DNA of 64,000 nt from Acidobacteriaceae bacterium (GTDB lineage Bacteria; Acidobacteriota; Terriglobia; Terriglobales; Acidobacteriaceae), in contig PLGG01000015.1 in NCBI GenBank assembly GCA_003138515.1, positions 1,344 to 65,343 of the forward strand, read 5' to 3'. A program made the position numbers and the translations under genes. Below the pieces are notes generated by a model. The model ran no database searches. It was given only the letters and a program-made list of their open reading frames with translations, and was not told the origin of the DNA. How positions within the stretch are numbered: position 1 is the stretch's first letter; each line of letters begins with the position of its first letter. Shown piece by piece: positions 6,190 through 21,026 of the stretch.

Positions 6190-6250
6190 GCGGGGGGCCG
6201 CGCACCCGCTTGCATCAGCCCTTCACTCGCTCACTTCTTCACTTTTCCCC

Positions 6251-7273
6251 TTACGCCGTCCCCATCACAATCGTGTGCGGGCTCATCGGAATCGGATGCG
6301 CTTTGACCCCCTTGAACCCCGCCTCGTTGTGCATGGCGTTCAGCTCGCTCAGCGTGTAGGCGTCGCCATCCGCCGTTGAGGCCAGCATCGTCATGGCAAA
6401 CGCCGCGGGCATCGGCGGCGAGACGCGGTCCTCATTAGGCACAAACTCAAGCGTCGCCGCGCGCCCGCCCGGCTTCAGCGCCGAACGAACCTTTTTCAGC
6501 AGCCCGACATTCGTCGGCTTGTCAAAGTGGTGAAGAAAATTCGTCAGCAGCACCACATCGTACGGCCCGCCGAACTCCACTTCAAACGCGCTACCCGGCA
6601 GCATGTTGTAACGGTCTTTTACGCCGGCCTTTTCCGCGTTCTTCAGCGCCACGCGCAGCACGGGAGCCCAATCGAGGCCGGTCACCTGCGCCTGCGGATT
6701 CTGTTTCGCAATCTCAATTCCGAACAGTCCGTGACCGGCCGCGATATCCAGCACGCGCATCGGCCCGTTGCGTCCCTCGAGCACCACCGCACCCAGCGGA
6801 CCCGCCATCGGTCCCATCATCGGCGCCATCTGCTCCGCAAACAGCACCCATACCGGGTTCTCCGGCTCCACGGTGCCATCGCCCGGCAAAGTGGTTCGCC
6901 CGTCGCGCACTACCTCCGCCAGGCGGTCGAAAGGCTCCCGCAGCTCCGGAGTGCTCAGGAATTTCGCTACGGAAGCCATGCACGCTGGCGAGCGCGGGTC
7001 GAGAAACGCTGCGCTCGTCGGTGTGTGCTTATACTTCCCGTTCTCCTTCGCCAGAACGCCATTGATCACGAGAAAATCGCACAGGATTCGGATGCCGCGC
7101 TCCGATGCTTTCGCGTGGCGCGCAATTGAGGCCGCATCGCCCGGCCCTTCACCCACCGCCATGAAAACGTCCAACTCGATGGCCGCTTTCAGAGCCGCCG
7201 TGCGCTGGTGCGCCTGCACCATCTCGAAAACCAGGCCCGGGTTCAACGGTGCTGCTTGAGAACCAGCAGACAT
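6251..7273 (-). CDS. SAM-dependent O-methyltransferase (acetylserotonin O-methyltransferase-like)
   Basis: A 340-residue class I methyltransferase of the plant-COMT/acetylserotonin type. It has an N-terminal helical dimerisation/winged-helix domain (about 10-110, LKAAIELDVFMAVGEGPGDA) and a Rossmann SAM-binding domain beginning at VLDIAAGHGLFGIEIAK (about 183-199), with motif LLTNFLHHFD later. The substrate cannot be read from sequence; such proteins methylate small-molecule hydroxyls. The start at 7273 is fixed by a GAGGAGG site just upstream; the open frame continues to 7540 without homology. The gene stands alone, convergent to nothing and divergent from a small membrane-protein gene. Confidence 0.85.
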   Translation of the reverse strand: MSAGSQAAPLNPGLVFEMVQAHQRTAALKAAIELDVFMAVGEGPGDAASIARHAKASERGIRILCDFLVINGVLAKENGKYKHTPTSAAFLDPRSPACMASVAKFLSTPELREPFDRLAEVVRDGRTTLPGDGTVEPENPVWVLFAEQMAPMMGPMAGPLGAVVLEGRNGPMRVLDIAAGHGLFGIEIAKQNPQAQVTGLDWAPVLRVALKNAEKAGVKDRYNMLPGSAFEVEFGGPYDVVLLTNFLHHFDKPTNVGLLKKVRSALKPGGRAATLEFVPNEDRVSPPMPAAFAMTMLASTADGDAYTLSELNAMHNEAGFKGVKAHPIPMSPHTIVMGTA

Positions 7274-7405
7274 AAACAACCTCCTCTTTCGCCCAGCGGG
7301 AAGATTGAAATTTGGGGAATCCCGGGGCGGGCTCACCGAGTGTATCACTCGCCAAGTCCCATCGCGCAACAACCGCTCCGCGCCGCCGCGATACATTGAA
7401 GGGTT

Positions 7406-7699
7406 GTGCATCTCCTCCTCTCGATCTTTCGCTTGCGGCAAAGGTCGCTGGTGCGCGCCATTCTCCTTTCGGTGGGCGCATTTGCCGCCAGCCTGCGCCT
7501 CGCCGGCTTTCCCCACATCGAGAACATTCACGGCTCGCACTGGCAGGTTCTCGCTCTATTGGTTGCTGCGTGGGGTATGGCAGAGACCGCCCGCTGCCTG
7601 CGGCGCAAGTGGAGCTTCTACCACGCCGGCGTGCTCATCCTCTTGTATACCGACCTGATGATCCTTGCGGCCATCGTGGTCATGCTTGCTGTTCCCTGA
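7406..7699 (+). CDS. Small integral membrane protein, hypothetical
   Basis: No family recognised. The 97-residue product contains three hydrophobic segments (about 17-34, 44-60 and 73-96), separated by a basic loop (CLRRKWSFYHAG), which fits a three-span inner-membrane protein. The predicted start is GTG with only a weak GAAGGG close upstream, so the N-terminus is uncertain. It is divergent from the methyltransferase and lies 161 bp upstream of mscL, with no sign of co-transcription. Composition matches its neighbours. Confidence 0.55.
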   Translation: MHLLLSIFRLRQRSLVRAILLSVGAFAASLRLAGFPHIENIHGSHWQVLALLVAAWGMAETARCLRRKWSFYHAGVLILLYTDLMILAAIVVMLAVP

Positions 7700-7860
7700 A
7701 GGCTCACGCGACTTGCCAACCTCGCTGCGCAAACCTCGCTGCACAAGGGCCGCATCGCCGTGTAGCATTGCATAGTGTTCAATCGGTAACTCTCCAGAGC
7801 GGCCATCTCCTGGCTTGCGCATCACTCGCCGGTTGAACCCTGGATTTTCCGGAGGAACTC

Positions 7861-8265
7861 ATGCTGAAGGGATTTCGAGATTTCATCTTCCGCGGAAACG
7901 TCGTCGACCTGGCGGTAGCCGTGATTCTTGGCGCCGCATTCAATGCCATCGTTGCTTCTCTGGTTGCGGACGTGTTGAACCCGCTGATCGCCGCAACCGT
8001 AGGCAAGCCCGATTTTAGCAGCGTCATTCTGCACGTGGGCAACGGTCAAGTCAAGGTGGGCAACTTCCTCAACGCGACGATTTCGTTCCTGATTGTGGCT
8101 ACAGTCGTGTATTTGGCCATCATTGTGCCCATGAACGCGTTCAATGCACGGCTCAAGAAGCCTGAAGAAGCAGCCGCCCCCACAACCAAAAACTGTCCGG
8201 AATGCCTGAGCGAAATTCCGTTGGCGGCCCGCCGCTGCGCGCATTGCGCACAACCCGTCGCCTAG
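7861..8265 (+). CDS. mscL: Large-conductance mechanosensitive channel MscL with C-terminal zinc ribbon
   Basis: MscL opens under membrane tension and protects against hypo-osmotic shock. The N-terminus MLKGFRDFIFRGNVVDLAVA and TM1 (about 14-40), the periplasmic loop and TM2 (about 70-95) are canonical. The tail differs from E. coli MscL: residues 112-134 form a short zinc-ribbon-like module, CPEC then CAHC about 14 residues later, in place of the plain amphipathic helix. The ATG has a GGAGGA site a few bases upstream. The gene is monocistronic or weakly linked to the peptidase gene 30 bp downstream. Confidence 0.95.
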   Translation: MLKGFRDFIFRGNVVDLAVAVILGAAFNAIVASLVADVLNPLIAATVGKPDFSSVILHVGNGQVKVGNFLNATISFLIVATVVYLAIIVPMNAFNARLKKPEEAAAPTTKNCPECLSEIPLAARRCAHCAQPVA

Positions 8266-8296
8266 TCCCGGGTTGATCAAAAACTCGCTCGCTCGA

Positions 8297-10447
8297 ATGG
8301 CCTATTCAATGAGATTCCGTTCTGCATTTGCGCTTGTTGCCCTTGCCGTGGCCGTTGGGTTCTCTTCGCGCCCATCGCCAGCGCAGATCGTGCCGCAGGG
8401 CGCCTTCGGCTTTACCGACTTCGGCGCCGAAGCGAAGCTCGAAGAAAAGTTCCTTGCTGTTCCCGACCCCAAACTTGCCGGCGAAGATCTGAAGACCCTC
8501 ACCGCCGAGCCGCATCTCGCCGCAACGCCTGAAGACTACAAAACCGCCGAGTTCGTCGCGCGCAAATTCCGCGCCGCCGGTCTCGAAACGCAAATCGTTC
8601 CCTATCGCGTGCTCCTCAACCAGCCCAAGGTCGTTCGCGTCGAGGCCTGGGACGAAGCCGGCCATCCGCTCATGACCGGTCCCGCGCGCGAGCACGTGAA
8701 CGGCGATCCTCAGCAGGATGACCCGCGCATCGTAATGCCGTTCAACGGCTCTTCCGGTTCCGGAGACGTGACCGGCGAGGCCGTCTACGCAAACTACTGT
8801 CGCCTTGAAGACTTCGATTCGCTCGCCGCGCAGCACATCGATCTTCACGGCAAAATTGCCGTCTGCCGCTACGGCACCAACTTCCGTGGCGTCAAGGTTT
8901 ACCTCGCAGAGCAGCGGGGCGCAATCGGCGTGCTCATCTACTCCGATCCCCAGGACGACGGCTACTACAAAGGCGATCCTTATCCCATCGGTCCGTGGCG
9001 CCCCGACACCAGCGTCCAGCGCGGCTCGGTTCAATATCTCTTTCGCTATCCGGGCGATCCTGAGACTCCCGGCGTCGCCTCCACGCTCGATCTGCCCGAC
9101 TCCGCCCGCATCAAGAAAATCGATGGGCCCGACGGCAATCAGCCGCACATCATCTCCATTCCCCTCAGTTCTCACGATGCCGCGCCGATTTTGCAGGCGC
9201 TCAAAGGTCCGGGCGCGCCGCAAGGCTGGCAGGGTGCGCTGCCGTTTCGCTATCACCTCGGTCCCGCCGGAGTAAAAGTTCACCTCGTCTCCCAGCAGGA
9301 CTACCAGCGCCGCATCATTTGGGACGTCATCGGAAAGATCCCAGGCGCGCAAGATCCTGACGCATGGGTCATCGTCGGCAATCACCGCGACGCGTGGGTC
9401 TATGGCGCAGTCGACCCCTCCAGCGGCACCGCCGCCATGCTTGAAGCGGTTCGCGGCATCGGCGCGCTTCTCCATCAGGGATGGCGTCCTCGCCGCACCA
9501 TCGTCTTCTGCAGTTGGGACGCCGAGGAGGAAGGCCTCGTCGGCTCTACCGAATGGGTTGAGCAGCAGGACCACACCCTCGACCGCGCCGTCGCTTACTT
9601 TAACGTCGATGTCGCCGTCTCCGGTCCCGATTTCTCCGCGTCGGCCGTGCCCTCGCTGAAAAATTTCATCCGCGATGTGGCCCGTTCCGTTCCCAGCCCT
9701 GTGACCGGCTCAGTTTTTCTTCAGTGGCATCTCAGGCCATCCGGCGCTGACGAACATCACGAATCGAATGCGCCACCCATCGAGGGCGAAGAAGTCCACG
9801 TCGGCGATCTCGGCTCCGGGTCTGACTTCACTCCCTTCCTGCAACACGCCGGCGTGCCTTCAACTGAAGTCGGTTCAAACGGGCCCTATGGCGTCTATCA
9901 CTCCGCCTTCGACGACTTCGCCTGGTATACGCAAAACGCCGATCCCGATTTCGTCTACCTGCAGGAAATGGCGCGCGTCCTTGGCCTTGAAGCCATGCGC
10001 ATGGCCGACGCCGACGCACTTCCCTACAACTACATCGCCTACGCGCGCGAAATCTCGGCGTACATCCAGACGGCAAAGCGCAGGGCCGCCGACAACGGCC
10101 TCGCCTCTCTCGATTTCGCACCCGTCGAAGCAGCCGCATCGCATTTCGCCGCCGCCGCCGACCACGTTCATGCCCTCCAGTCCACTCCATATGGCGATCT
10201 CACACAGTTGAATCTCGCTCTCCGCCAGGCGGAAACAGCGCTGCTCTCGCCCTCCGGCCTCCCCGGCCGCCCGTGGTATCGCCACACCATCTACGCTCCC
10301 GGCGAACTCACCGGCTACGCCGCCGTTGTCATTCCCGGCGTCAACGAGGCCATTGACGCCCGCAACCCCACCCTTGCCGCGCAGCAGTTGGCCGTCCTCT
10401 CTCAAGTCCTCGATCGCGCTGCAATCGTCCTCTCAGCCGCGCATTGA
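8297..10447 (+). CDS. Exported M28-family metallopeptidase (glutamate carboxypeptidase II-like)
   Basis: A secreted zinc aminopeptidase/carboxypeptidase of the GCPII/transferrin-receptor group, about 716 residues. A signal peptide (about 1-30) is followed by a PA domain (about 150-300), the M28 catalytic domain with the metal ligands in GNHRDAWVYGAVDPSSGT and SWDAEEEGLVGSTEW (about 365-430), and a helical TFR-dimer-like C-terminus (about 590-716). The order and length match the family. ATG at 8297 or 8309 gives a good signal sequence; a TTG at 8273 is also in frame. The likely role is degradation of extracellular peptides. No partner genes. Confidence 0.92.
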   Translation: MAYSMRFRSAFALVALAVAVGFSSRPSPAQIVPQGAFGFTDFGAEAKLEEKFLAVPDPKLAGEDLKTLTAEPHLAATPEDYKTAEFVARKFRAAGLETQIVPYRVLLNQPKVVRVEAWDEAGHPLMTGPAREHVNGDPQQDDPRIVMPFNGSSGSGDVTGEAVYANYCRLEDFDSLAAQHIDLHGKIAVCRYGTNFRGVKVYLAEQRGAIGVLIYSDPQDDGYYKGDPYPIGPWRPDTSVQRGSVQYLFRYPGDPETPGVASTLDLPDSARIKKIDGPDGNQPHIISIPLSSHDAAPILQALKGPGAPQGWQGALPFRYHLGPAGVKVHLVSQQDYQRRIIWDVIGKIPGAQDPDAWVIVGNHRDAWVYGAVDPSSGTAAMLEAVRGIGALLHQGWRPRRTIVFCSWDAEEEGLVGSTEWVEQQDHTLDRAVAYFNVDVAVSGPDFSASAVPSLKNFIRDVARSVPSPVTGSVFLQWHLRPSGADEHHESNAPPIEGEEVHVGDLGSGSDFTPFLQHAGVPSTEVGSNGPYGVYHSAFDDFAWYTQNADPDFVYLQEMARVLGLEAMRMADADALPYNYIAYAREISAYIQTAKRRAADNGLASLDFAPVEAAASHFAAAADHVHALQSTPYGDLTQLNLALRQAETALLSPSGLPGRPWYRHTIYAPGELTGYAAVVIPGVNEAIDARNPTLAAQQLAVLSQVLDRAAIVLSAAH

Positions 10448-16594: not shown

Positions 16595-17086
16595 CTACGA
16601 GCGGCCGATGCTATCCACCTCGCGCTTGATGGCGAGTTGGTCAAGGGCACCGAGCGGCAGGGACACAAAGAGTCCGATCCTGCGGTCGAGCACGATGAAG
16701 GCGTCGCGGAACGCCCTCGCGATCTCTTCCGGCGTTCCCTTCACGGCGGCCGGATCGGGAATTCCCCAATGCGCCGTCATCGGCTGCCCCGGCCAGAATG
16801 GACAAACTTCCTTCGCCGCGTTGTCGCAGACCGTGAAGACAAAGTTCATCTTCGGCGCATCCGCGCCCGCGAATTCATCCCATGATTTGCTGCGCAGGCC
16901 CGCGGTCGGAATGTGCGCGAGCTCCAGTTGCCTCAGCGCCTCGGGCCGGACTGCGCCGGATGGATGGCTGCCCGCACTGTACGCGGTAAAGGCGCCGCCG
17001 CCCTTATGGTTCAGGATGCCTTCTGCCAGGATGGAGCGGGCCGAGTTGCCGGTGCAGAGAAACAAAACGTTGTAGTGTGCGGGCAT
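16595..17086 (-). CDS. arsC: Arsenate reductase ArsC, thioredoxin-coupled (LMW-PTPase fold)
   Basis: Reduces arsenate to arsenite for export by Acr3. The 163-residue protein carries the P-loop LCTGNSARS (about 10-18), with the nucleophilic cysteine at 11, and the second redox cysteine region [19 protein letters not shown] (about 83-101). This is the low-molecular-weight-phosphatase type that uses thioredoxin rather than glutaredoxin. It lies 7 bp after arsM and 22 bp before acr3, inside one operon controlled from the divergent arsR promoter region. Confidence 0.95.
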
Positions 17087-17093
17087 TCTGGAG

Positions 17094-18038
17094 TCAGCCT
17101 CTCACCGTCTCTGAAGTAGTCGAACAGCATCCTGATCCGCAGCACGGGCCCTCTGCCGATCCTTGCGGCTTGGTGGCGCGGATGAACGCGCTCATGAATT
17201 TCCCTTGCGTCTCGGCCGCGATTGCGTCCACATCCACGCCGGATCCGGTAAGAAACTGCCGCGCGTCTTCAATGTTGTAGACGCGGGTCGGCTCAATTTC
17301 CACGCTGCTGAAGCCCGCGGCTTCAAGGCGCTTCCGGTAGTCCTGTTCCTCCAAAGCGCCGGCCACGCAGCCCACCCAGAGCAGCACGCTTTGCCTCACC
17401 TGCTCAGGCACATCGCCGCGCACCACCACATCGGAGACGGCGAAGCGGCCGCCCGGCTTGAGCACGCGAAATGCTTCGCGCAGAACGCGGTCCTTGTCGG
17501 CCGAGAGGTTGATCACGCAATTCGAGATCACCACATCGACGGAGCCGCCGGCCAGCGGAATGTTTTCGATTTCGCCTTTGAGGAATTCAACATTTTCAAC
17601 ACCGGCGCGGCGCTGATTCTCGCGGGCAAGAGCCAGCATGTCGTCGGTCATGTCCAGGCCGTACGCCTTGCCGGTTGGCCCCACGCGGCGCGCGGAGAGA
17701 AGCACGTCGATTCCGCCGCCCGAACCGAGATCGAGCACCACTTCGCCCGGTTTCAATTCGATAAGCGCCGTGGGATTGCCGCAGCCCAGCGAGGCCAGAA
17801 CAGCCTTCTCGGGGAGCTGTCCCTTTTCATCGGCGCTGTAGAGATTGGTAGTGATGGGGTCGCAGCAGCGAAGCGCTAGATCGCAACATGCGGCCAGGCT
17901 TCCGTCCTGCGCAATCGCGCGCGCGGCGCTGCCGTACTTCTCTTTCACTTCCTCTTTCACCTGCCTCGGGACCAATTGACTTGCAGCTTCTTGACTTGCA
18001 GCTTCTTGACTTGCAGCTTCTTGACTTGCAGCTTCCAT
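17094..18038 (-). CDS. arsM: Arsenite S-adenosylmethionine methyltransferase ArsM
   Basis: Methylates As(III) with SAM. The SAM site [19 protein letters not shown] (about 87-105) is clear. Cysteines expected for arsenite binding appear in [12 protein letters not shown] and in [10 protein letters not shown]. The C-terminus ends in a cysteine-rich metal-binding-like tail ([10 protein letters not shown]). The start at 18038 is 6 bp after a GAGGAG site, giving 314 residues; an ATG at 18044 touches that site and is less likely. Directly after the start come four exact EAASQ repeats (residues 2-21), which are not part of the conserved fold. It is the first gene of arsM-arsC-acr3. Confidence 0.92.
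17976..18035 (-). repeat. Four perfect 15-bp tandem repeats in the 5' end of arsM
   Basis: TTGACTTGCAGCTTC (plus strand) occurs four times head to tail without a mismatch at 17976, 17991, 18006 and 18021. Because the unit is 15 bp, each copy adds EAASQ to ArsM without changing frame. Perfect identity suggests recent slippage expansion. Confidence 0.95.
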
Positions 18039-18056
18039 TTGCATCTCCTCATATAC

Positions 18057-18108
18057 GTCAATGCAAATATATGCCAGCCTGGACATATCTGTCAATGCGT
18101 ATATTATG
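18057..18108. promoter_or_regulatory. arsR promoter and candidate ArsR operator repeats
   Basis: Plus strand: TGGACA (18080-18085), 16 bp, TATTAT (18102-18107), placing the start at or next to the arsR ATG (leaderless). Two direct repeats, GTCAATGCAAATATATG at 18057 and GTCAATGCGTATATTATG at 18091, lie 34 bp apart in the arsM/arsR divergent region. They are the obvious candidates for ArsR binding and would cover both promoters. Confidence 0.5.
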
Positions 18109-18113
18109 AAACT

Positions 18114-18521
18114 ATGAACTCCCGGACCAAGCCGGCCGATCTGGCGCCCTTGTTTCGAGCGCTTGCTGACCGAACACGGCTGCGTCTGCTCAATCTGATT
18201 GCGGGGCGCGAGGTGTGTGTCTGCTATCTCGTGGAGATCCTGCGCCAGAGCCAGCCCAAGATTTCGCGCCATCTGGCCTACCTGCGCAAGGCCGGCGTGG
18301 TCGCTGCGCGGAGAGAAGGCAAGTGGATGCACTACCGCATGGAACGCCCTCGCGATGCGGCGTCTGCACTGGTGCTGGATGCTGCGCTCGAGTCCTTCAA
18401 GCTGGATCGGGAAATGCAGTCGGACCTGGCCTGCCTGAGCCGAGCCTGCTGCCGGCCTGACCGCTTCGTCTCGCTTCAGGGAGCGCCGGCGCCCATTCGC
18501 TTCGACTCAACCGCGGCCTGA
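18114..18521 (+). CDS. arsR: ArsR-family arsenic-responsive repressor
   Basis: A 135-residue winged-helix repressor of the ArsR/SmtB family. The helix LAPLFRALADRTRLRLLNLI (about 8-27) and the metal-sensing helix EVCVCYLVEIL (about 31-41), with the CxC typical of As(III) sensors, are followed by the recognition helix SQPKISRHLAYLRKAGVV. Extra C-terminal cysteines (LACLSRACC) may add ligands. It is divergent from arsM and should repress arsM-arsC-acr3 and itself until arsenite binds. The open frame extends upstream to 17976 through the arsM repeats but the ATG at 18114 fits the promoter. Confidence 0.92.
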   Translation: MNSRTKPADLAPLFRALADRTRLRLLNLIAGREVCVCYLVEILRQSQPKISRHLAYLRKAGVVAARREGKWMHYRMERPRDAASALVLDAALESFKLDREMQSDLACLSRACCRPDRFVSLQGAPAPIRFDSTAA

Positions 18522-18977: not shown

Positions 18978-18985
18978 CTAAAAGG
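18978..18985. repeat. 8-bp target-site duplication, left copy
   Basis: CTAAAAGG directly abuts the left terminal inverted repeat and is repeated exactly at 21019-21026 next to the right one. Eight base pairs is the duplication size known for the IS1595 family. Confidence 0.9.
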
Positions 18986-19011
18986 CAAGATTATTCACTT
19001 GACAAAGGGTA
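18986..19011 (+). repeat. Left terminal inverted repeat of the IS1595-family element
   Basis: Starts CAAGATTATTCACTTGACAA and continues AGGGTA. Compared with the right end read inward (20993-21018) there are two mismatches in 26 positions. It contains the TTGACA that serves as -35 element of the transposase promoter. Confidence 0.9.
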
Positions 19012-19053
19012 ACGATTTCGATAACATGTTTTCATGATGATCGTTACCCCTTT
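18999..19053 (+). promoter_or_regulatory. Transposase promoter with overlapping dyad in the IS left end
   Basis: TTGACA (18999-19004), 17 bp, TAACAT (19022-19027) form a good sigma70 promoter. An inverted repeat, AAAGGGTAACGAT (19004-19016) and ATCGTTACCCcTTT (19040-19053), covers the spacer and the early transcript. It could be an operator, for example for transposase autoregulation, or form a hairpin at the mRNA 5' end. Confidence 0.55.
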
Positions 19054-19174
19054 CCTTTCTTTGGTTTCACTGACATGGTTGGACGGGGCATTTGCCGCAA
19101 ATCTCGCTTTATGCTCGCAACTAGCTTTCGGGTGGGTACGCGCTGCAAAGGCGATTTCGGTTTACGAGGTGTAG
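19034..19174 (+). CDS. Possible leader ORF (46 aa) ahead of the transposase
   Basis: An ORF beginning MMIVTPFLSLVSLTW starts at the predicted transcript 5' end and stops with TAG two bases before the transposase ATG. It could couple or limit transposase translation. It has no recognisable family, and its first codons lie in the dyad described at 18999-19053. Low confidence as a real peptide; the geometry is the reason for listing it. Confidence 0.25.
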   Translation: MMIVTPFLSLVSLTWLDGAFAANLALCSQLAFGWVRAAKAISVYEV

Positions 19175-19176
19175 GC

Positions 19177-20088
19177 ATGACACTCCCTGAAGTGAATACG
19201 ATGTTTTCGACTGCCGATAAGTGCCGCGAGTTGCTTGAGCGGCTTCGCTGGCCCGAAGGCGTGACGTGTCCGCGCTGCAAGGATCGCCGCGTGTCTCGAA
19301 TGAAGGATTACGCCCGCTTTGAGTGTGTCGGTTGCGAGTACCAATTTACGGTGATGAGCGGGACGATCTTCCATGATTCCCACCTCCCCCTGCCGATGTG
19401 GTTTCTGGCTGTTCTGCTGATCTGTGAGGCAAAGAAGGGGATGAGCGCCATGCAGTTGAAACGGACGCTCTGGGGCCAGCACAAGGGCAGCTACAAGACG
19501 GCGTGGTATCTCTGCCATCGCATCCGGGCGGCAATGGCGACGGCGGAAAAGACGATGCTCGACGGAACAGTGGAGATGGACGAGACCTACCTTGGCGGTC
19601 GCCTTAAAGGCGCTGGACACCACTGGCGGAAATACCCGGACCTCAAACAAGTTGTCGTCGGCATCAAGCAGCGCAACGGCGATCTTCGTTTTTTCCACGC
19701 TGAGGATGCGAAGCAAGGGACACTGGCGAAATACATCAAAGAGAACGTCAGCCAGGATGTCGAGGTCATCATGACCGATGAGCTTCCCGCCTATCCCGGC
19801 GCGATTGTAAAAGCAGGAATGAAGGACGTTCCGCACCGGACGGTCAACCACAGCGCTAAGGTCTATGTGGATGGCGACATTACCACGAACGGAATCGAAT
19901 CCGCCTTCTCCTTGCTCAAGCGGGGCATCCTTGGTTCGTGGCATAAAGTCTCTGCAAAACATCTTCCGGCCTACCTTGAGGAAATGACCTTCCGGTTCAA
20001 TCGCCGGGGCCGTTCCGATCTGTTTGTTGATACGCTGCGGCACATGGTCACTGCTGATCCTCTGACGTTTCAGAATCTGACGGCATAG
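19177..20088 (+). CDS. IS1595-family (ISXO2-like) transposase
   Basis: A 303-residue DDE-type transposase. An N-terminal zinc ribbon (CPRC at 31-34 and CVGC at 50-53) is followed by the ISXO2-like catalytic domain. Candidate catalytic residues are D135 in VEMDETYLGG, D201 in MTDELPAY, N238 in TTNGIES and K248 in LLKRGILG, the D-D-N-K pattern of this family. The conserved tail KHLPAYLEEMTFRFNRR is present. The ATG at 19177 follows a GAGGTG site; the frame is open upstream to 19075. Its 3' end overlaps the convergent passenger gene by 41 bp. No frameshift or stop, so it is probably functional. Confidence 0.95.
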   Translation: MTLPEVNTMFSTADKCRELLERLRWPEGVTCPRCKDRRVSRMKDYARFECVGCEYQFTVMSGTIFHDSHLPLPMWFLAVLLICEAKKGMSAMQLKRTLWGQHKGSYKTAWYLCHRIRAAMATAEKTMLDGTVEMDETYLGGRLKGAGHHWRKYPDLKQVVVGIKQRNGDLRFFHAEDAKQGTLAKYIKENVSQDVEVIMTDELPAYPGAIVKAGMKDVPHRTVNHSAKVYVDGDITTNGIESAFSLLKRGILGSWHKVSAKHLPAYLEEMTFRFNRRGRSDLFVDTLRHMVTADPLTFQNLTA

Positions 20089-20977
20089 TGTACGCCTCGG
20101 CGTGGGATGATCTCATTCTCGTGACCATATCGTGAATGTTTAAGCTGTTTTCCAAGTCATCCACTATGCCATCCGGTATCCGCGGAAGCGCTTTCCATTT
20201 TTCCTTGTATCCCGCAAGTGCTGGTTCTTTAAGAAGGGCTTGCAACTTATTCCACTCAGGATCGAGCACAAAGAGCACGGAATCTGGTCCCACGCCCTCT
20301 GCTGCTTCCGCTGTAAATTTGGCGGCTAAGACCGCGAAAATACATTCGCCAAGCCGCTTCCATTTATCGTATGGCTGACGGTCTAATGAGAATTGCGCCG
20401 CCCACGCCCCCGTACCGATGACGCCGTATCCCTGAGCATCACAAAAGGCAAGGTTCCCGGGTCCAGAGATAACAAAAATATGCGGAATAGAGTCCCGCTC
20501 AAAACCGCACATCAGTACGTTTAGACCCTGATCGAAATCCTTAACTTTTGCCTCTATCGCGTCATAGAAGTCGCGGTCAGACGCTTTCAGTGAAAGGTAT
20601 TCTTCGTATGAATTCACGTCGTAGTCAGAAAGAACTTCCGTCTCGACGAGTTTCCGACGTTCAACCTTGTAAATGCCGACGCAATATCGCGCGAAATCAA
20701 TAAAAATTTCAGGAACCGCGTCCTTTAGTCCTTCCTCAAAAGCGTAGCCCATCGCTGTTAAATCCGAAGTTTTGCCCGACAGCAAAGCCCACCAGTTTTT
20801 TCTAACGGTTTTCATCTTCCACGCTGTACCGTCGGAAGAATGAATGCCGCCCATCGTTGTCAGTCGTCTATCGAAGCAGGCGATAATCACCCTGCTCGGT
20901 TGCTTGTCATGAATCCCGGCGATACATATGGTCAAGTCTCGACCCCCCTTTGGCTGACGGTGCGGCTTAGAGGCCAT
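20048..20977 (-). CDS. Proteasome/HslV-like Ntn-hydrolase, IS passenger gene
   Basis: A 309-residue protein whose N-terminal third fits the 20S proteasome beta/HslV fold: LTICIAGI (T16 aligning with catalytic Thr1), VIIACFDRRLTT (D36, R37 as the Asp17-like site), KMKTVRKNW (K54 or K56 as Lys33-like) and ALLSGKTSDLTAMG, matching HslV AGGTADAF. The rest (about 85-309) is unfamiliar. A TTG at 20935, 7 bp after a GGGGGG site, would give Met-Thr-Ile-Cys, so methionine removal alone would expose the catalytic threonine; the ATG at 20977 also has a GGGGG site. It lies wholly inside the IS ends, convergent with the transposase. No unfoldase (HslU, ClpX, Mpa) is nearby. The role is unknown; fold assignment is by eye. 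Confidence 0.7.
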   Translation of the reverse strand: MASKPHRQPKGGRDLTICIAGIHDKQPSRVIIACFDRRLTTMGGIHSSDGTAWKMKTVRKNWWALLSGKTSDLTAMGYAFEEGLKDAVPEIFIDFARYCVGIYKVERRKLVETEVLSDYDVNSYEEYLSLKASDRDFYDAIEAKVKDFDQGLNVLMCGFERDSIPHIFVISGPGNLAFCDAQGYGVIGTGAWAAQFSLDRQPYDKWKRLGECIFAVLAAKFTAEAAEGVGPDSVLFVLDPEWNKLQALLKEPALAGYKEKWKALPRIPDGIVDDLENSLNIHDMVTRMRSSHAEAYTMPSDSETSEDQQ

Positions 20978-20992
20978 TGGACGCTTCCCCCG

Positions 20993-21018
20993 TACCCTTC
21001 GTCAAGGGAATAATCTTG
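20993..21018 (-). repeat. Right terminal inverted repeat of the IS1595-family element
   Basis: Read inward on the minus strand it begins CAAGATTATTCCCTTGACGA and continues AGGGTA, matching the left end except at two positions. The passenger gene starts 16 bp inside it, so its promoter must overlap the repeat or lie outside the element. Confidence 0.9.
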
Positions 21019-21026
21019 CTAAAAGG
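21019..21026. repeat. 8-bp target-site duplication, right copy
   Basis: Exact CTAAAAGG repeat of 18978-18985 flanking the right end of the insertion sequence. Confidence 0.9.

Follow-up and report, generated by a model that had tools for sequence, protein, structure and literature searches.

How does a proteasome-like enzyme come to be the only passenger of a small bacterial insertion sequence (IS), and what might it do there? The question is raised by a 64,000-nucleotide stretch of an Acidobacteriaceae draft genome (contig PLGG01000015.1, positions 1,344 to 65,343; hereafter the window), which holds a 2033-bp IS1595-family element at 18986-21018. Judged from its sequence, this is a compact IS1595 cargo transposon whose sole cargo is a predicted proteasome-like N-terminal nucleophile (Ntn) hydrolase that retains its catalytic residues, and genes predicted to be of the same type recur in IS1595 and IS1 elements of related genomes. 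The reading that we favour, at a probability of about one half, is that the cargo is of conflict type: a mobile, unfoldase-free hydrolase that would help its host or its element in genetic conflict.

The element is flanked by exact copies of an 8-bp target-site duplication, CTAAAAGG, at 18978-18985 and 21019-21026. Its 26-bp terminal inverted repeats, the left on the forward strand at 18986-19011 and the right on the reverse strand at 20993-21018, are identical at 24 of 26 positions. A scan of the whole window for inverted pairs matching at 17/26 positions or better found one further pair besides these repeats, of 17/26; a second scan, for at least 14/26 with the first six bases exact, returned the element pair alone, and the same 14/26 scan of 30 block-shuffled windows yielded 13 pairs in total, the best of them 16/26. 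The original prediction of a 2033-bp unit with exact duplications and two mismatches in its ends is thereby confirmed. An intact open reading frame (ORF) at 19075-20088 on the forward strand encodes a 337-residue transposase with a zinc ribbon and a DDE domain, matching PF12762 at 6.3e-32, PF12760 at 2.6e-11 and the NCBIfam IS1595 model (NF033547) at 6.8e-51, all above cut-offs; the element thus belongs to the IS1595 family by its transposase domains as well as by its inverted ends and 8-bp duplications. The second gene runs toward the transposase gene, the two convergent 3' ends overlapping by 41 bp (20048-20088), and domain matches and ORF positions bear out this predicted pairing of an intact transposase with a convergent neighbour. 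Since the second-best transposase of the draft genome is 56% identical to that of the element, the element is seen there as a single copy. No second cargo gene exists among the ORFs of the window element, which therefore has no unfoldase, as had been supposed.

The predicted reverse-strand cargo ORF at 20048-20977 exists, but its translation probably starts at the TTG at 20935 and not at the ATG at 20977, giving a gene of 295 codons plus stop (20048-20935). A G-rich, Shine-Dalgarno-like stretch, noticed by eye, lies upstream of the TTG on the same strand at 20943-20951. The protein so read begins Met-Thr-Ile-Cys-Ile-Ala-Gly, with the proposed nucleophile, Thr2, encoded at 20930-20932, and its Thr2, Asp22, Lys40 and Gly54 match Thr1, Asp17, Lys33 and Gly47 of the proteasome. 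The first three of these had been proposed as candidates and fit; Gly47, kept in most relatives, completes the Thr/Ser1-Asp17-Lys33-Gly47 set of a proteasome-like Ntn hydrolase. At 13 of 14 loci, the window included, an ATG, GTG or TTG stands directly before the same Thr, which in L051 is a Ser (the start codons of L051 and L055 were read by eye), and the fourteenth, L053, has no intact in-frame N-terminus. A start codon abutting the Thr or Ser fits a protein that has no propeptide and whose Thr is laid bare when the Met is lost. Asp22, Lys40 and Gly54 are kept in all 12 aligned relatives, with Thr as the proposed nucleophile in 11 and Ser in one. In a 49-row alignment that spans two groups of these enzymes (group A, which includes the window cargo, and group C, taken up below), the non-gapped rows have Thr/Ser1 in 44/45, Asp17 in 46/47 and Lys33 in 45/46.

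What kind of fold carries these residues? A profile built from 12 relatives matches the 20S beta subunit at 1.4e-13, and the relatives L002 (= L048), L050 and L045 exceed the cut-off of the Pfam proteasome family, PF00227. AlphaFold, given a thin input alignment of five rows, produced a best model (of five) with a mean predicted local distance difference test score (pLDDT) of 69 and a predicted template-modelling score of 0.72. With this model, all of the 50 matches listed by Foldseek are proteasome subunits. So are all of the 50 listed by VIA-align (Z 15.2-16.0, root-mean-square deviation 2.7-4.2, 173-197 residues aligned), and many of those alignments begin with residue 2 of the model opposite beta-subunit Thr1. 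Structure prediction, the check first proposed for this gene, thus returns the alpha-beta-beta-alpha Ntn/proteasome fold in the best model, and its structural matches extend over residues 1-250 of the 295, which disposes of the notion that the likeness is limited to the N-terminal half. Profiles, the conserved Thr/Asp/Lys triad and the AlphaFold model together place the cargo as a predicted divergent proteasome-like Ntn hydrolase. The proposed resemblance to HslV and 20S beta subunits is upheld as to the fold and the 20S beta match, but the protein is proteasome-like and not an HslV: HslV is a short subunit paired with HslU, whereas the cargo has 295 codons and no second cargo gene beside it. 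The host genome has a separate HslV of 182 residues (G000:C43, identified by eye). HslV, Anbu and BPH are bacterial members of the superfamily of the window cargo, and Anbu has the same Met-Thr start; unlike all three, the cargo is a 295-residue protein with inserted helices, and its element contains no HslU.

Fuchs, Alva and Lupas (2021; PMC8665760) surveyed 22 new proteasome-like families, for which no genomic context or co-occurrence pointing to a specific function is given. The predicted helical insertion of the window cargo follows helix 2, at about residues 101-135 (pLDDT 83-92), and its place, the only feature compared, puts the protein nearest in build to PHI or PMI-3/PMI-4 of that survey. 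The homologues described there (PMC8665760) share with it the core fold, the Thr/Asp/Lys triad, the lack of a propeptide, a helical insertion after H1/H2 and the lack of any AAA+ partner found. The same text offers a footing for the idea that the enzyme is no protease at all, and is instead a specific amidase or a connectase-like ligase on the proteasome fold: connectase, a monomer, is a ligase with this fold, and the helical insertion of the window model sits where, in other homologues, long insertions could clash with rings (PMC8665760). The signature insertion of connectase, however, lies between strands 3 and 4 in the published description, unlike that of the window protein, and we consider a departure from proteolysis improbable.

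How widely is the association with insertion sequences shared? Searches with the enzyme alone, confined almost wholly to one phylum that we infer to be Acidobacteriota, led to 34 distinct loci, the window included. An IS1595 (13) or IS1 (3) transposase is found within 1.5 kb at 16/34 of them (15/33 without the window), and three more (L056, L103, L107) adjoin an IS1-type end; the random-gene background for such proximity is about 0.2%, as estimated from 83 IS1595 and 55 IS1 matches in 61 genomes. L113 (transposase at 1620 bp) and L097 (IS1 at 2182 bp) lie beyond that distance and were scored as having none. In these counts duplicate loci are merged (L205 = L096, L047 = L057, L202 = L209), and the A-type match G719:C222 and the C-type matches G560:C53, G657 and G641 are left out. 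Outside the phylum, where the searches scarcely reached, one relative, L045 (Syntrophomonadaceae), has no IS1 or IS1595 transposase on its 3.4-kb contig.

Proximity is backed by anatomy. In fourteen elements, eight of them IS1595 and six IS1, a gene of this kind lies between ends that are flanked by exact 8-bp duplications. The IS1595 elements are that of the window, L049 (whose ends differ in their first bases), L052, L054 (for which several end and duplication readings fit, because the flank is partly palindromic), L104 and L111, together with L064 and L164 of groups B and B', the protein of L164 being judged proteasome-like by motif alone; the IS1 elements are L044, L108, L207, L209, L216 and L219. 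In L046, L055, L096 and L110 the gene lies between recognisable IS1595 ends, duplication status aside. Homologues inside IS1595 ends, the recurrence on which the original prediction was staked, are therefore found (the window, L049, L052, L054, L104, L111 and others), and a cargo with a protease fold is supported, but the link is not unique to the window element or to IS1595. The IS1 cargo elements (ends GGTAGTG or GGTACTG) share the enzyme family and the 8-bp duplications, and differ from the window element in transposase and end sequence. L044 and L108 have transposases that score above the cut-off of PF03400 (IS1) and under that of NF033558 (IS1). Two candidates were set aside. L048, from the same genome as the window, has a transposase 596 bp away, but the IS1595 ends there (6245-8665) exclude the Ntn gene, and it was counted, within the 16, as near an IS and not as cargo; the Ntn gene of L143/L192 breaks off right at an IS1595 end, hence a neighbour or target and not cargo. 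Plasmids searched with other members of the family gave no match, so that spread on the plasmids searched is unsupported.

More than one branch of the fold is involved. Group B is seeded by L064, another cargo of the same genome; the enzyme-only search with it gave three matches beyond the seed, all three beside IS1 or IS1595 transposases (a further B-type member, L175, was contributed by the IS survey described below, and not by this search). Its profile reaches proteasome beta subunits at 0.001 only and is related to that of group C (92%), with no detectable profile relation to group A. The group C profile matches proteasome subunits at 2e-9 and group A at 98% probability, and 12 of the 16 group C loci examined (of 19 matches) have a transposase within 1.5 kb, or 10/14 when L192 (the truncated neighbour, which was the seed) and L205 (= L096) are taken out. 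B' (L164 and L191) is proteasome-like by motif, having no Pfam match. The genome of the window alone carries proteasome-like genes on its IS1595 elements W (that of the window), L064 and L164 (by motif) and on the IS1 element L216, as well as L048 beside an IS1595 element, and its HslV. In each of the elements L064 (3215-7552) and L164 (2362-5555) a DUF3800-type gene, recognised by Pfam in L064 and by eye in L164, accompanies the gene for a divergent proteasome-like protein.

The traffic between carriers can be followed, roughly, on a tree. It was built from 54 loci, of which 49 A and C rows (48 different) were kept and five left out as too short or unmatched (L056, L094, L112, L114, L206); it is a quick tree with long branches, and its change counts cannot separate gain from loss. 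With the labels IS1595, IS1 and other, it takes 19 changes against a shuffled mean of 23.2, a value as low being reached in 5/200 shuffles. The IS1 label is clustered (nine changes, as low in 1/500 shuffles). The IS1595 label by itself takes 12 changes, 10 of them forced by starred branches, and is not clustered, since shuffled labels do as well in 254/500 trials. L108, an IS1 case, and L110, an IS1595 case, are starred sisters, and the enzyme has therefore moved between carriers. We find repeated uptake more likely than a single ancient capture with many later losses.

Does the enzyme serve the element that carries it? As a regulator, the hydrolase would tune transposition by cutting or turning over either the transposase or a host factor. 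In all 12 group-A IS1595 cases (the window, L046, L049, L052, L054, L055, L096, L098, L104, L105, L110 and L111) the gene is convergent with the transposase gene, and in some of them the 3' ends overlap; genes of this type lie beside both IS1 and IS1595 transposases, and the IS1-type transposase of L108 weakly matches the IS1595 model. Elsewhere, however, the orientation varies (divergent in L108 and L112, tandem in L175 and L193). The gene is also scarce when one starts from the elements instead of the enzyme. In 61 genomes of the window's class, which we infer to be Terriglobia, 83 IS1595 loci were surveyed, 53 of them with exact 8-bp duplications and ends of at least 18/26; only 5/83 enclose a proteasome-like gene between their ends (the window, L055, L064, L164 and L175, with duplications checked for the window, L064 and L164). 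Among 40 newly fetched IS1 regions (of 55 matches) five have such a gene, four inside duplicated ends and the fifth, L245, adjacent to the IS1; L108, L188 and L199 fall outside the 40 as already known carriers of the enzyme, and the remaining IS1 matches are mostly short. Because so few loci of either kind have the enzyme, it is not needed for transposition, and a regulatory role seems distinctly unlikely.

The survey also shows what else these elements carry. An additional ORF of 75 residues or longer occurs in 52 of the 53 well-delimited IS1595 elements and one of at least 140 residues in 48, which suggests that IS1595 elements in bacteria of this class act as small gene carriers; the proteasome-like enzyme is one recurring cargo among many. 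The cargo ORFs, 72 in all, were called mechanically, and some may be spurious. At a threshold of 0.001 they match just 36 Pfam families, most by one ORF. Among the first 25 of these, DUF3800 occurs in four ORFs, PIN and Trypsin_2 in two each, and Trypsin, AIPR, SieB, Panacea, IrrE-like, RelA/SpoT, Zeta toxin, AAA_15, DUF3226, DNA methylase, Mrr and aspartyl protease in one each; among the first 25 of 137 PADLOC families, PDC-S45 occurs in four, LmuA in two, and AbiU, PDC-S33, PDC-M38 and methyltransferase models in one each. Such diversity is what one would expect if the enzyme were a plain hitch-hiker, some host-fitness or stress enzyme with no conflict role, aboard IS1595 and IS1 elements that tolerate any small gene, and members of its family are also found in ordinary chromosomal settings, as with L050 by a ribonucleotide reductase gene. 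Capture by chance, however, would show no preference for one fold, and several proteasome-like groups recur across two transposase families, far above the estimated background; we regard simple hitch-hiking as unlikely, if less so than a service to transposition.

A role in conflict is proposed because part of the sibling IS1595 cargo is of conflict type; we count here AIPR, SieB, Zeta toxin, RelA/SpoT, PIN, Panacea, AAA_15 with DUF3226, the methylase and Mrr. Three relatives without an IS nearby are counted with them. In L057 (4701-9402), with no IS1 or IS1595 near, the gene stands between a trypsin-like gene (by eye) before it and, after it, one for a 1192-residue type IIG-like restriction-methyltransferase; L099 (5207-7789) is an 861-residue ORF with HATPase_c_3 near its N-terminus and a proteasome-like domain toward its C-terminus; and the relative in L100 adjoins a Fic gene. 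On the conflict reading, Met aminopeptidase would remove the start Met and expose Thr1, and the enzyme would act as a small oligomer or monomer, without an AAA+ unfoldase of its own, on unfolded or specific peptide substrates. The cargo would persist through a benefit in genetic conflict, whether phage defence or an addiction-type function. We extend this, tentatively and at somewhat less than even odds, to a class: proteasome-like threonine hydrolases may be mobile unfoldase-free conflict modules, of which several lineages were repeatedly taken up by IS1595 and IS1 and spread through Acidobacteriota as one- to three-gene cassettes, sitting beside toxin-antitoxin, abortive-infection and trypsin-like protease cassettes. 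If that is true, some unexplained prokaryotic proteasome homologues would be defence or addiction enzymes and not housekeeping proteases.

Several observations weigh against this conclusion, some of them on the enzyme and some on its setting. The window protein reaches PF00227 at E 0.018, its 15.1 bits falling below the gathering cut-off of 22.4, and it is treated here as a divergent relative and not as a member of that family. The modelling is uneven: the other four AlphaFold models have mean pLDDT of 44-54, and in the best one residues 24-39, between Asp22 and Lys40, lie below 50, as do residues 268-295. Gly47 is less constant than the triad (38/46 non-gapped rows of the 49), and the helical insertion of the model may hinder ring formation. 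Searched alone against NCBIfam, PDB sequences, plasmids, phages, PHROGs, PADLOC and viral contigs, the cargo gave nothing useful, and so has no PADLOC, PHROGs or NCBIfam match of its own. At 15 of the 34 loci there is neither a near IS1 or IS1595 transposase nor an IS1-type end; some of these lie close to contig ends and some beside ordinary genes, L050 among them. The counts behind the defence share of IS1595 cargo, finally, stand without a control set.

IS1595-family insertion sequences with passenger genes, named 'tIS', were reportedly described by Siguier, Gagnevin and Chandler in 2009. The window element resembles them in transposase family, inverted ends, 8-bp duplications and a passenger gene by the transposase, and differs in that its cargo is proteasome-like. 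In the literature searched, from which subscription journals are mostly absent, no paper contains both IS1595 and proteasome, and among the matches listed no title or abstract opening describes a link between insertion sequences and proteasome-like proteins. The main text of the 2021 survey contains neither 'transpos' nor 'insertion sequence' (PMC8665760). It does show that mobile members of the fold were already known: PPH and AAH are found in phages, and a few other families seem to carry a phage mark in its Table 1 (PMC8665760). A set of proteins related to those families now has a strong and repeated context, as IS1595 and IS1 cargo, in a setting rich in conflict genes. A poorly understood enzyme family thereby gains a clear genetic setting, and the role of unfoldase-free proteasome homologues becomes testable at the bench on small, self-contained genes.

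Putative proteases and candidate defence genes also travel in sibling elements. In the genome of the window, IS1595-like ends with the duplication TGAATCTT enclose, at L062:1334-5738, an AAA_15 ATPase with a DUF3226 protein and a trypsin-like protease; the first two correspond to PDC-M38A/B of PADLOC and make a candidate defence pair as cargo. What looks like trypsin-like protease cargo is also seen in the IS1595 elements L061:2684-4723 (Trypsin_2 at 0.0018), L149:4464-6407 and L163:3604-5804 (these two by eye, with no Pfam match at 0.001).

The ends may also contribute to expression. The left terminal repeat of the window element holds an inward-pointing TTGACA hexamer, which is followed after 17 nt by TAACAT; this promoter-like site (18999-19027, forward strand), a consensus match of 10/12, has its -35 inside the left end and is positioned as would suit driving the transposase gene. 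A consensus promoter search of the region gave three sites against 1.4 expected in shuffles. A CTTGAC core that reads as an inward-pointing -35 box is common to many of the surveyed IS1595 ends, and such ends may be a source of promoters for transposase and cargo.

The insertion itself adjoins what appears by eye to be an ars-type cluster (16595-18521), with genes for an ArsC-like phosphatase, an ArsM-like methyltransferase and an ArsR-like regulator. Within it, at 17976-18035, lies a perfect 15-bp tandem repeat of four copies, whose translation is a repeated EAASQ close to the beginning of the ArsM-like methyltransferase ORF.

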